From Acidihalobacter sp. (GTDB lineage Bacteria; Pseudomonadota; Gammaproteobacteria; DSM-5130; Acidihalobacteraceae), in the NCBI GenBank assembly GCA_027013225.1, contig JALUXU010000048.1, positions 1-47,272 of the forward strand: DNA of 47,272 nt, in the 5' to 3' direction. The translations under genes were made by a program, and so were the position numbers. Under the pieces are notes generated by a model, which searched no databases, was not told the origin of the DNA, and worked only from the letters and a program-made list of their open reading frames with translations. How positions within the stretch are numbered: the stretch's first letter is position 1; every line of letters begins with the position of its first letter. This document shows positions 235-8,022 of this stretch, in pieces.

Positions 235-714
235 TTATTTTTGAGAACGTTTAAGCAAACGTTCCCGGTCGCGGCTCCATTCGCGCTCCTTTTCCGAGGC
301 GCGCTTGTCATGCTGTTTCTTGCCTTTTGCCAACCCAAGTTCGAGCTTGGCGCGCCCCCGTTTCCAGTAGAGTGAAAGAGGCACGAGGGCATAACCCTTG
401 CGCTCTACGGCACCGATCAGGCGGTTGATTTCAGAACGATGGAGCAGTAATCGACGAGTGCGGGTGGGGTCCGGCTTGACATGGGTGGATGCGCTGGCCA
501 GAGGGGAGATGTGTGCGCCGAACAGCCAGAGTTGGCCATCGCGCACGAAGGCATAACTTTCGTTCATTTGCACCCGTCCGGCTCGCAGGCTTTTGACTTC
601 CCAGCCTTGCAGTTCTATCCCCGCCTCGAAACTGTCTTCGATGAAGTATTCATGCCGCGCACGACGGTTGACGGCTATCTTGGATGACTCATTGGACGTA
701 TTCTTCTTGCTCAT
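235..714 (-). CDS. smpB: SsrA-binding protein SmpB
   Basis: SmpB binds tmRNA (SsrA) and brings it to ribosomes stalled on broken mRNA, where trans-translation frees the ribosome and tags the peptide for decay. The 159-residue protein has the usual family length. It carries [11 protein letters not shown] at 17-27, [10 protein letters not shown] at 37-46, the DPTRTR/LLL segment near 82-91 and the basic tail GKKQHDKR at 131-138, which enters the decoding centre. The ATG at 714 was chosen because it matches the N-terminus of family members; an in-frame ATG farther upstream adds 38 residues without family likeness. No Shine-Dalgarno sequence precedes this ATG. The gene diverges from the transporter gene. 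The ssrA gene that often follows smpB is not seen before the window edge. Confidence 0.97.
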
Positions 715-804: not shown

Positions 805-2169
805 ATGAGCGAACGCAAATCGATACACGGTGAATGGTCCTCTGGATGGGCGTTTTTCCTAGCGGCCACGGGGGCCGCGGTCGGCCTGGGCAATATATGG
901 ATGTTCCCTTATCTGGCCATGCGGTATGGAGGTGGCGCTTTCATCGTCGTTTACCTGATTTGCGTCGCTCTGGTGGCCATGCCGTTGCTTGTCACCGAGA
1001 TCACGCTGGGGCGACGCGGGCGGAAAAGTCCAGCCAATACTTTTTTTGAGCTGGCTTTGGATGAAGGTCGTAGCAGTGTCTGGGCTGGCGCGGGTTTCGT
1101 CGCTATGGCTGGAGGCCTTATCGTGGCCGCTTTTTTCAGCCTGGTTGCCGCTTGGAGTCTGGAATACCTGTGGCGTAGTCTTTTAAGCGGGTATGTGGGT
1201 ATTACTTCTGAACAGGCTGGAAGCGAGTTGCAAGCAATGCTCGGCGATCCCTGGCTGCAAATGTTTTGGTACTCCCTATTTTTGGCCGTCGCCGCAGGGA
1301 TCGTCGCCCGAGGTGTGCGCAAAGGACTTGATCCAGCGGCGCGTTTCATGGTGCCGATGCTGTTTGCTTTACTGCTCATCCTGATTGTCTACGCCTTATG
1401 GGTGGGGCGGCCGGAACCCGCCTTGCGTTATCTTTTTGTGCCGGATTTTTCTCGATTGAATGCGAGCGGGGTCTTACTGGCTTTGACGTATTCGTTTTTC
1501 GGACTGAGCGTCGGCGTGGGCGCGATGCTGAATTATGGCGCGTATATGCCTAATCATTTACCGATCATGCCAATGACCGCCGCGGTGGTTTTCGTGGATT
1601 TCCTGGTGGCGGTGAGTTCGGGGCTGGCTATTTATCCTTTGCTGATAGCCAATGGATTGCCCGTTTCTGATGGGCCCACACTTGTTTTCACCTTGCTTCC
1701 CGCTGCTTTCGGCAGCATGCCATTTGGCGGTTTTTATGCTGCCCTGTTCTATCTCATGCTTGTACTGGCAGCCTGGACTTCCGTGATTGCCTTGCTTGAA
1801 CCCACGGTGAGCTGGCTGGTGGAATGCGGCTGGCGCCGATTATGGGCCGCGATCTTGGTGGCGATGATCGTATGGGTCATCGCCATGGTTTTGGATTTTT
1901 CTTTCAATCTGTGGTCCTCGATTACCTGGCATGGCAGGAGCGTGTTGGATATCTTCAATGCGGCGAGTTCCGATATCATTCTCCCCTTGAGTGGCTTTTC
2001 GGCTGTTTTTTTTGCCGCCTGGATGATGTCTGAGCGCAGTCTTCGGCAGGAATTGCGCACCCATCGCCTCTTGGTACGATTGTGGTTGATCGTCCTGCGT
2101 TATATCGCGCCAGTTGGTATCCTGTTCGTTTTGTTCAACGCTCTAGGATTGATGCGGGGAGTTTTATGA
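805..2169 (+). CDS. Neurotransmitter:sodium symporter (SNF) family transporter
   Basis: This 454-residue inner-membrane protein belongs to the SNF/NSS family of sodium-coupled amino acid transporters (LeuT fold). TM1 holds [14 protein letters not shown] at 23-36, TM6 the [16 protein letters not shown] block, and TM8 the [10 protein letters not shown] block whose Thr-Ser matches the second sodium site of LeuT. About eleven to twelve hydrophobic helices are visible. The residue after GLGNIW is Met33, where LeuT and nearly all relatives have Arg (R30 of the outer gate). The ATG at 805 was preferred to the one at 799 because GGA lies 8 bases upstream. The gene ends in an ATGA overlap with ratA, so the two are co-translated. 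The substrate cannot be told from sequence. Confidence 0.9.
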
Positions 2170-2603
2170 CGACATTGAGCCGGAATGCGCTGGTGCCCTA
2201 TTCGCCCAGCGAAATGTACGATCTCGTGAACGAGATCGAGCGGTATCCCGAGTTTTTACCGTGGTGCAAATCAACCGAGGTGCATGAACGCTCTGAAGAT
2301 GAGGTCAAGGCAACTATCGAGCTTGCCAAGGGTGGGATCCACAAGAGCTTTTCCACCCACAATCGCATGCAACCTGGGAAGATGATCGAGATCCGTCTCG
2401 TTGAGGGTCCATTCAGTCATTTGCATGGGTTCTGGCGTTTCGATCCGTTGGGAGAGTCGGCCAGCAAGGTTTCCATGGATATGGAGTTCGATTTTTCCAA
2501 CCGATTGCTGGGAATGGCGGTTGGGCCGGTGTTCGGTCAGATTGTTTCCACGCTGGTCGATGCCTTCGTCAAGCGGGCACGAGAAGTGTATGGCACTCGT
2601 TGA
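2166..2603 (+). CDS. ratA: Ribosome association toxin RatA, START/coenzyme Q-binding fold
   Basis: The 145-residue product is a small single-domain protein of the polyketide cyclase/START (SRPBCC) superfamily. Family hallmarks are the N-terminal VPYSPSEMYDLVNEIERYPE stretch at 9-28, FLPWCKS soon after, and the closing FVKRAREVYG helix. In E. coli RatA was described as binding 50S subunits and blocking 70S assembly; its relatives (Coq10) bind ubiquinone, and which role applies here is open. The start codon overlaps the transporter stop (ATGA at 2166-2169). It overlaps rnfH by 14 bases at its other end, the same pairing (ratA-ratB) as in E. coli. Confidence 0.93.
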   Translation: MTTLSRNALVPYSPSEMYDLVNEIERYPEFLPWCKSTEVHERSEDEVKATIELAKGGIHKSFSTHNRMQPGKMIEIRLVEGPFSHLHGFWRFDPLGESASKVSMDMEFDFSNRLLGMAVGPVFGQIVSTLVDAFVKRAREVYGTR

Positions 2604-2919
2604 AGCTTTCAGGAATCGTTGGCTGTCGAAGTCGAAATTCCAGGTGGAAGTTGCTTACGCGCGTCCAGACCGCCAGCTCATACTCCGTTGCAGGGCTGAT
2701 ACGTCCATGCGATTGAAAGATGTCATTGAGTCGTCCGGAATTTTGAGGATATTTCCGGAAATCGATATCTCCACCGCGCGGGTGGGTGTTTATGGGCACC
2801 TGCGTTCTATCGAGGATCGCGTTTCAGAGGGAGACAGGATACAAATCTACCGACCGCTGCAAATCGATCCCAAGGAGAGCCGGCGTCGGCGGGCGGCGGC
2901 AAGAAAAAAATCGTCATGA
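2590..2919 (+). CDS. rnfH: RnfH family ubiquitin-like protein (RatB)
   Basis: This 109-residue protein has the beta-grasp ubiquitin-like fold of the RnfH family. Key segments are the QVEVAYARPDRQ strand, a middle block with LKDVIESSGILRIFPEID, and DRVSEGDRIQIYRPLQIDPK before a very basic tail (RRRRAAARKK). The role of RnfH is not settled; it neighbours rnf genes in some bacteria and ratA in others. The ATG at 2590 lies inside the end of ratA and gives a normal family length. The reading frame runs 6 bases into the oppositely oriented bamE, so the two genes converge without a spacer. Confidence 0.92.
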   Translation: MALVEAFRNRWLSKSKFQVEVAYARPDRQLILRCRADTSMRLKDVIESSGILRIFPEIDISTARVGVYGHLRSIEDRVSEGDRIQIYRPLQIDPKESRRRRAAARKKSS

Positions 2920-6852: not shown

Positions 6853-6963
6853 ATTGCTTGCTTGTCACGAAGATTTGATTTGCTTTTTCTGTGATCTGGT
6901 GAGAGAGAAAGGTAGAGAATGAAAGTTGCCAATTGATAACATGTGCCGATTGAGGATGTTGGG

Positions 6964-8022
6964 ATGAAAACTTCAAATCAAGACAAGGATGCGGCATTGA
7001 ATGAGCGATCCATGCGCATCCTAAAGGAACTGATCGAAGCATATATTCATTCTGGCCGGCCGGTGGGATCAAAGGTTTTAGCGCAGACATCTGGCATTAA
7101 TTTCAGCTCGGCCACGGTGAGAAATATTGCAGCCGAACTCGAGGAGATGGGCTTCGTGCGTTCTCCCCATACCTCGGCTGGCCGGGTGCCAACCGCTTTG
7201 GGGTATCGGATGTATGTCGATGCCCTTTTGCAGGAGCACCCACCTCTGCAGGAAGATTTAGATCGGATGCGCGTTCATCTCGATCCTGAACTCAGGTCTG
7301 AAGACTTGATCGAATCGGCGTCGGATATTCTCTCAGGTATTACTCATCTGGCTGGTGTTGTGACTTTGCCAAGAGGTAAACAAGCGGCTTTGCGACAGAT
7401 CGAGTTTTTACCATTAGGCGGCCGCCGTGTTTTGGCTATTCTGGTTATGAATCAACGCGATGTTAAAAATCGGATTATCCAACTGGATCGCGAATATAAA
7501 GAATCTGAGTTGCAGCAAATCGGCAATTATCTCAATGCGCACTTCGCCGGCAGGGAATTGGAGACCATTCGCCACGATTTACTGTGCGAGCTCGAGAAGA
7601 TGCGCATGGATATGGATCGTCTGATGCAAGGGGTCATCGAGCTCGCGGACAAGGCATTGGTACAGGACGAGGAGGAAGTCGATTGCGTGGTGGCCGGCCA
7701 GGGGAATTTACTCGAATACCGGGAGCTGATGAATTTTGATCGTTTGCGTGCATTGCTCGTGGCTTTTACAGAAAGACGCAAAATCTTGCACTTGCTGGAT
7801 GAGAGCATTAAAGCGCAGGACGTTCGGATTCTTATTGGTCATGAGTTGGGTTGCGATATATTCGATTACTTGAGCGTAGTTTCGGCCCCTTATAGCGTGA
7901 ATGGAGAAGTTATTGGTGTATTGGGTGTAATCGGCCCTACTAGAATGCCCTACGACCGGGTGATCCCTGTCGTTGATATTGCCGCGCGTATGTTGGGTGA
8001 GGCGATGAGCGCAAGCAGATAA
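6964..8022 (+). CDS. hrcA: Heat-inducible transcription repressor HrcA
   Basis: HrcA is a winged-helix repressor that normally binds the CIRCE operator and holds down groE or dnaK operons until heat or unfolded protein relieves it. The 352-residue product starts with NERSMRILKELIEAYIHSG, followed by the helix-turn-helix region INFSSATVRNIAAELEEMGF and the SPHTSAGRVPTALGYRMYVD block that is diagnostic for the family. The C-terminal GAF-like part ends with GVLGVIGPTRMPYDRVIPVVD. The ATG at 6964 has GAGG 8 bases upstream; a GTG at 6943 is an alternative. It lies immediately before grpE-dnaK-dnaJ. Confidence 0.96.
   Translation: MKTSNQDKDAALNERSMRILKELIEAYIHSGRPVGSKVLAQTSGINFSSATVRNIAAELEEMGFVRSPHTSAGRVPTALGYRMYVDALLQEHPPLQEDLDRMRVHLDPELRSEDLIESASDILSGITHLAGVVTLPRGKQAALRQIEFLPLGGRRVLAILVMNQRDVKNRIIQLDREYKESELQQIGNYLNAHFAGRELETIRHDLLCELEKMRMDMDRLMQGVIELADKALVQDEEEVDCVVAGQGNLLEYRELMNFDRLRALLVAFTERRKILHLLDESIKAQDVRILIGHELGCDIFDYLSVVSAPYSVNGEVIGVLGVIGPTRMPYDRVIPVVDIAARMLGEAMSASR

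Follow-up and report, generated by a model that had tools for sequence, protein, structure and literature searches.

LeuT is the model for the human neurotransmitter transporters, and the roles assigned to its outer gate (the pair Arg30–Asp404), to Tyr108, and to its sodium site Na1 rest largely on mutants. A gene near the start of the window (the whole stretch of 47,272 nucleotides of Acidihalobacter sp. DNA that was analyzed) codes for a relative in which all three parts are changed. It raises the question whether a natural transporter can work in this state, and for which substrate. If it does, such a protein would show which parts of the transport cycle are dispensable and which change of substrate accompanies their loss.

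Results and Discussion

An NSS transporter gene in an ordinary neighborhood

The gene (positions 805..2169, plus strand; ATG at 805, TGA at 2167-2169) codes for a protein of 454 amino acids, which matches the Pfam family SNF (PF00209) with 143.1 bits (curated cut-off 27) and the NCBIfam model NF037979 (sodium-dependent transporter) with 90.7 bits (cut-off 50). It is the only PF00209 gene found in the host genome (two matched stretches, one gene). The solved structure closest by sequence was that of MhsT, another bacterial NSS (4us3, 6yu4; E 2.6e-72, phmmer). An AlphaFold2 model, built from an alignment of 38 sequences, had a mean pLDDT of 93.2; among the best 50 matches listed each by VIA-align and Foldseek, MhsT was also the closest in fold (Z 50.2 over 438 residues), and LeuT was matched with Z up to 44.7. 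Given the PF00209 match and the LeuT fold over its whole length, the protein belongs to the NSS family.

The gene is flanked by divergently oriented smpB (235..714, minus strand; TIGR00086, 178.5 bits, scanned as 235-711, the start codon being read from the sequence) and followed by ratA (2166..2603, plus strand; PF03364, 132.8 bits; NF007999, 150.2 bits, which is under the curated cut-off of 258) and rnfH (2590..2919, plus strand; profile matches). The ATGA overlap between the NSS stop codon and ratA, which had been pointed out in a reading of the sequence only (hereafter the sequence-only reading), is real (2166-2169), and the congener overlaps by the same 4 bases. That reading had also considered the arrangement unusual, which it is not: 151 gammaproteobacterial homologues were analyzed, and at 112 of these loci the NSS gene was found between a divergent smpB and ratA, with ratA being the next gene at 131. 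The remaining 39 loci had ratA without smpB being found (18), ratA on a stretch too short for smpB (1), smpB alone (3), or neither (17). These counts are lower bounds, as smpB and ratA were sought with the host genome's own proteins (E 1e-4) in flanks of ∼1.5 kb. The gap between the NSS gene and ratA was mostly small, the two genes touching or overlapping in 17 of 128 measurable loci. E. coli, which was one of 14 control genomes and not among the six with a PF00209 match, lacks the gene; as the order smpB-NSS-ratA is common, the oddity is that of E. coli, and an unusual operon in the window was ruled out.

The 151 homologues came from a whole-protein search with matches in 212 of 370 genomes (matches left out were mostly weaker) and comprise 28 loci (L004-L031) plus 123 others (23 new loci and 100 fetched); the fragments at L032 were excluded from all counts. 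Those linked to smpB and ratA share the gene place with the query; the congener (L004) is 59% identical to it, and the other matches listed mostly 40-49%. Within the order, the arrangement smpB-NSS-ratA-bamE-fur-recN-nadK was kept in all five genomes, the last four genes being what we take to be bamE, fur, recN, and nadK. In one relative from the order (L237:11605-13274 and L237:14355-15382), the match to recN and that to the window's ORF at 6943-8022 each appeared as two overlapping pieces, the pattern expected from a frameshift or an assembly error.

Both charges of the outer gate are absent

The TM1 motif of the protein (residues 27-36; 883..912, plus strand) contains Met33 (ATG, 901-903, plus strand), which was aligned with Arg30 of LeuT and with the corresponding Arg of MhsT, phmmer alignments included; the substitution noticed in the sequence-only reading is therefore correctly placed. 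Its gate partner is lost as well, since Asp404 of LeuT corresponds to Asn385 (AAT, 1957..1959, plus strand). Equally borne out was the retention of sodium-site residues: Asn30 and Thr325-Ser326 (1777..1782, plus strand) correspond to Asn27 and to the Na2 ligands Thr354 and Ser355 of LeuT. The expectation that nearly all relatives carry Arg at LeuT position 30 was incorrect, because the gammaproteobacterial homologues have Lys (120 of 151), Arg (29), or Gly (2), and none has Met. Thus, the usual residue in this class is Lys, and Met is rare there. Lys or Arg at position 30 was combined with Asp or Glu at position 404 in 146 of the 151, unlike in the query.

Met does not mark a clade either, as this position is Arg in the congener and Lys in the order's other genus. 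Met33 and the Phe, Gly, and Tyr described below are changes of this species, and Asn at position 404 is common to the congener. Because query and congener share this Asn, the tree points to loss of the acid at 404 as the probable first step, followed by that of the charge at 30. In that other genus (L005-L007), the pocket is altered differently, with Ala22 replaced by Val and Ala261 by Thr, and TM1 reads WKYPY. Loss of the gate charges at the same gene place was observed once more, in another gammaproteobacterial locus with the order smpB-NSS-ratA (L033:1089-2420), which has Met and Val at LeuT positions 30 and 404, and Met at position 250.

In other branches, Met at position 30 is not rare. 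A motif-pattern scan found 258 related stretches; of the 80 relatives kept from these, 77 have Met, but one of the six patterns was GNIWMFPY, so that this set is biased toward Met and shows no more than that. Such branches (from Clostridia, Woeseiaceae, and others) resemble the query in this motif, but they are separate in the tree, where Met and other residues were exchanged at least eight times (172 of 234 rows used). In a sample of Pseudomonadota (299 genomes, 70 matching; 31 NSS proteins from the best-scoring 30 loci), position 30 was Arg in 16, Lys in seven, and Gly in eight. These eight Gly proteins (L261, L262 with two, L264, L268, L273, L275, and L277) all lack an acid at 404, where they have Ala, Ile, Tyr, or Val, and represent another natural gate without a charge pair of the Arg30/Asp404 type.

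Across 264 of 265 rows (the contig-cut L044 was left out of this table and of the tree), an acid at 404 accompanied Lys or Arg at position 30 in 173 of 177 cases and Met or Gly in 15 of 87; put the other way, 72 of the 87 neutral rows lack it, versus four of the 177 charged ones. Many Clostridia, however, have Asp at 405 instead of 404, and when position 405 is counted, 63 of the 77 Met rows have an acid. Coevolution of the two positions was not proven: seven independent tree pairs (five in the 172-row tree) gave a median p of 0.25 in a sign test, and the tendency vanishes with position 405 counted. The charges at 30 and 404 tend to go together, the events being too few for significance, and gates lacking this charge pair have arisen repeatedly in nature.

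An ordinary amino acid symporter, in which Met and Asn replace Lys and Asp as mutually compensating changes just as in many natural NSS, could account for this gate. The 72 neutral rows without the acid speak for it, even in a set enriched for Met by the scan pattern, and so do the repeated gains and losses of Met in the tree. In those relatives, however, Tyr108 is always retained and Gly never occurs at position 254 (see below); we therefore regard this explanation as improbable.

Another conceivable cause is that the periplasmic vestibule has become adapted to acid, since charged gate residues would be of little use at low pH. RuBisCO was found in all five genomes of the order, as were rusticyanin-like proteins, the latter with scores below the family cut-off and with a match in one of the 14 control genomes as well. 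Together, they suggest that the order consists of acidophilic chemolithotrophs, which such an adaptation would fit. The other genus, however, which has the stronger rusticyanin-like matches, keeps Lys and Asp, and the congener keeps Arg. Because the sister genus keeps both charges, acid alone does not explain the change, and of the explanations weighed here this one has the smallest chance of being correct.

Changes on the outer-gate, substrate, and Na1 side

In LeuT, Tyr108 defines the substrate site. At this position the query has Phe111 (TTC, 1135..1137, plus strand), and it is alone in this: the other 263 rows of the table all have Tyr, including the 151 gammaproteobacterial homologues. 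TM3 of the query is also altered at the nearly fixed columns corresponding to LeuT positions 104, 106, 110, and 113. In TM6a, residues 228-233 read T-Y-S-F-F-G (1486..1503, plus strand), which places Thr228, Tyr229, and Gly233 at LeuT Gly249, Gln250, and Thr254, respectively. Position 250 is His or Gln in 150 of the 151 homologues. Position 254 is Thr or Ser in 248 of the 264 rows (and in 151 of the 151 homologues), Lys in 15, and Gly in the query only. Asp265 (1597..1599, plus strand) at LeuT Asn286, in the Na1/Cl site, is shared with MhsT and 150 of the 151 homologues. With regard to Na1, the ligands at LeuT positions 22 and 27 are thus kept and that at 286 is Asp as in the relatives, whereas Gly at 254 could serve with its backbone alone.

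The Na2 ligands (LeuT positions 20, 23, 351, 354, and 355) are all unchanged. Compared with LeuT, the protein shares the fold, these ligands, and Asn27, and differs at Arg30, Asp404, Tyr108, Thr254, and Gln250; in MhsT, its closest relative of solved structure, the residues matching Met33, Asn385, Phe111, and Gly233 of the query are Arg, Asp, Tyr, and Thr, respectively. When 18 positions of the outer gate, the S1 site, Na1, and position 250 were considered, the query deviated at five. The 151 homologues deviated at none (126), one (13), or two (nine) of these positions, except for one each with three, four, and five, the last being L031, which has a very long branch. At 12 positions of Na2 and the inner gate, the query did not deviate at all. 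The change is one-sided: the side of the outer gate, S1, and Na1 is altered, and that of Na2 and the inner gate is intact. Met33, from which the question started, is less notable than the changes beside it (Phe111, Gly233, and Tyr229). A single sequencing error was ruled out as the cause, because five separate codons (those of Met33, Phe111, Tyr229, Gly233, and Asn385) are altered in an intact frame.

Several of these positions have been mutated in LeuT. Exchange Y108F abolishes binding of Leu to S1, an outward-open crystal form was obtained from the double mutant Y108F/K288A, and release of Leu was not sped by Y108F in simulations (PMC4281755). Loss of Arg30, as in R30A, biases LeuT toward the outward-open state without fully blocking closure (PMC5052704, PMC11649037), and in dDAT the salt bridge was not apparent in two conformations (PMC6742698). 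Changes of Thr254 impair Na1, with a strong effect on transport and on Na+ affinity (PMC10707687), and Arg30 and Tyr108 belong to a set of seven positions at which mutants of GAT1, SERT, and DAT show phenotypes (PMC2194793). Natural NSS with Phe at LeuT position 108 or Met at position 30 were not found in a search of the open-licence literature, as far as the retrieved excerpts go.

The sequence-only reading had offered an altered gate, altered coupling, or a sensor-like role. Loss of the gate residue together with its partner stands, and the further changes suggest an altered substrate or coupling; the role as a sensor found no support. A transport-poor transceptor that rests in the outward-open state could be envisaged, as Arg30 loss and Phe at position 108 are the natural counterparts of two changes that have been linked to outward-open LeuT. 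The direct neighbors, however, are smpB, ratA, and rnfH, as in ordinary relatives, the nearest regulator is the putative fur gene ∼1.1 kb on, which is common to the order, and the inner gate is intact. A sensor is therefore very unlikely.

A fast-evolving gene under probable constraint

The gene evolved rapidly. Its branch in the tree was 0.63 long, compared with 0.22 for the congener, and it had 62 derived sites versus 17 (48 versus 23 when outgroups from the order were used). At 75 columns conserved to at least 97%, the query deviated at 10 and the congener at four, which ranks the query fourth of 152, after three distant rows. The host's other genes were also faster than those of the congener, as ten neighboring genes together had 176 versus 117 derived sites. 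An enrichment of the query's changes in pocket and gate beyond the general pace of the protein was not found (6 of 32 versus 62 of 453).

In a codon model, omega was 0.11 on the query branch, 0.068 on that of the congener, and 0.065 elsewhere; these values are rough because the tree shape was fixed beforehand and synonymous branches were saturated. An omega of 1 on the query branch was rejected (2dlnL 14.5), and equality with the congener was not (0.34). For recN, omega on the branch of the same genome was 0.108, about the value for the NSS gene. The same test against omega = 1 was weak for the short genes smpB (3.0) and ratA (3.6), both of which are surely constrained. With an intact frame and omega = 1 rejected, the gene is hardly an old pseudogene. 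Selection on it may have been relaxed recently, and because the query branch is long, part of the change may reflect relaxed constraint.

Decay has to be considered, that is, a transporter in a smaller genome in which selection on the substrate side has weakened, with poor or absent transport and a frame unbroken so far. Besides the fast branch, the size of the genome (2.27 Mb, compared with 3.4 Mb in the congener) is in favor of it, as is the fact that three of the altered sites are among those at which mutations made in the laboratory impair or bias LeuT (see above). The low omega, rough as it is, and the overall pace of the host's genes argue against decay, and so do the untouched Na2 and inner-gate sites, as decay should hit both ends of the protein. 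We consider this explanation unlikely, albeit one to be taken seriously.

A transporter that would rely on Na2

Although we would put it at slightly less than an even chance, the reading we favor, built on conserved and altered residues, is that of a constrained transporter with a remodeled S1/Na1 site and an uncharged outer gate, which would be driven via Na2 and accept an altered substrate. The gene would be this genome's version of a long-established NSS gene of gammaproteobacteria (smpB-NSS-ratA), remodeled in this species on the side that lies outward of the membrane center. Its product would work by alternating access, driven mainly via Na2 and probably by one Na+, and the outer gate might close by packing instead of a salt bridge. 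The carboxylate of the substrate would no longer be read together with Na1, and because this reading would be lost, the substrate should differ from the usual amino acids; candidates would be amines, amides, and bulkier hydrophobic compounds, none of the operon genes pointing to a particular one. That the protein is a selectively maintained natural NSS which, altered at Arg30, Tyr108 (now Phe), and Thr254, with the gate acid lost and Na2 and inner gate kept, works without either the carboxylate/Na1 pair or a charged outer gate is a stronger claim, which we hold to be possible but rather doubtful. At the least, it is a real NSS member in an ordinary neighborhood, which may carry a different cargo or work differently.

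A precedent may be TuriSERT, a bacterial NSS that also has Asp in the Na1/Cl site (PMC10707687). Unlike the query, it has Tyr100 in TM3 and Gln226 in TM6, which we match to LeuT positions 108 and 250. One Na+ bound per substrate has been reported for it; mutants, including that of Tyr100, kept comparable transport of APP+, and mutations in Na1 did not alter the Na+ dependence (PMC10707687). Thus, an NSS can manage without the TM3 tyrosine and Na1 when the substrate is not an amino acid.

A side branch with Lys at Na1

Among the 80 relatives from the motif scan, 15 form one branch (L046, L051-L062, L064, and L065; for example, L055:4034-5383) in which Thr254 of LeuT, in Na1, is replaced by Lys, Ser355 by Ala, and Thr354 mostly by Met or Gly; 14 of the 15 have Met at position 30. 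Both sodium sites look lost in these proteins, as if Lys replaced Na+. This would differ from the arrangement in the Na+-independent BasC, which has Tyr at Na1 and Lys at Na2 (PMC6472337). Six of the 15 loci (L055:5472-7587, L056, L058, L059, L061, and L062), which belong to Clostridium or Eubacterium multiforme, have genes for a response regulator and a histidine kinase directly after the NSS gene, the Pfam domains of which were checked in L055 and L062. Such a combination of an NSS of this branch with two-component genes would fit a sensing or regulated transporter.
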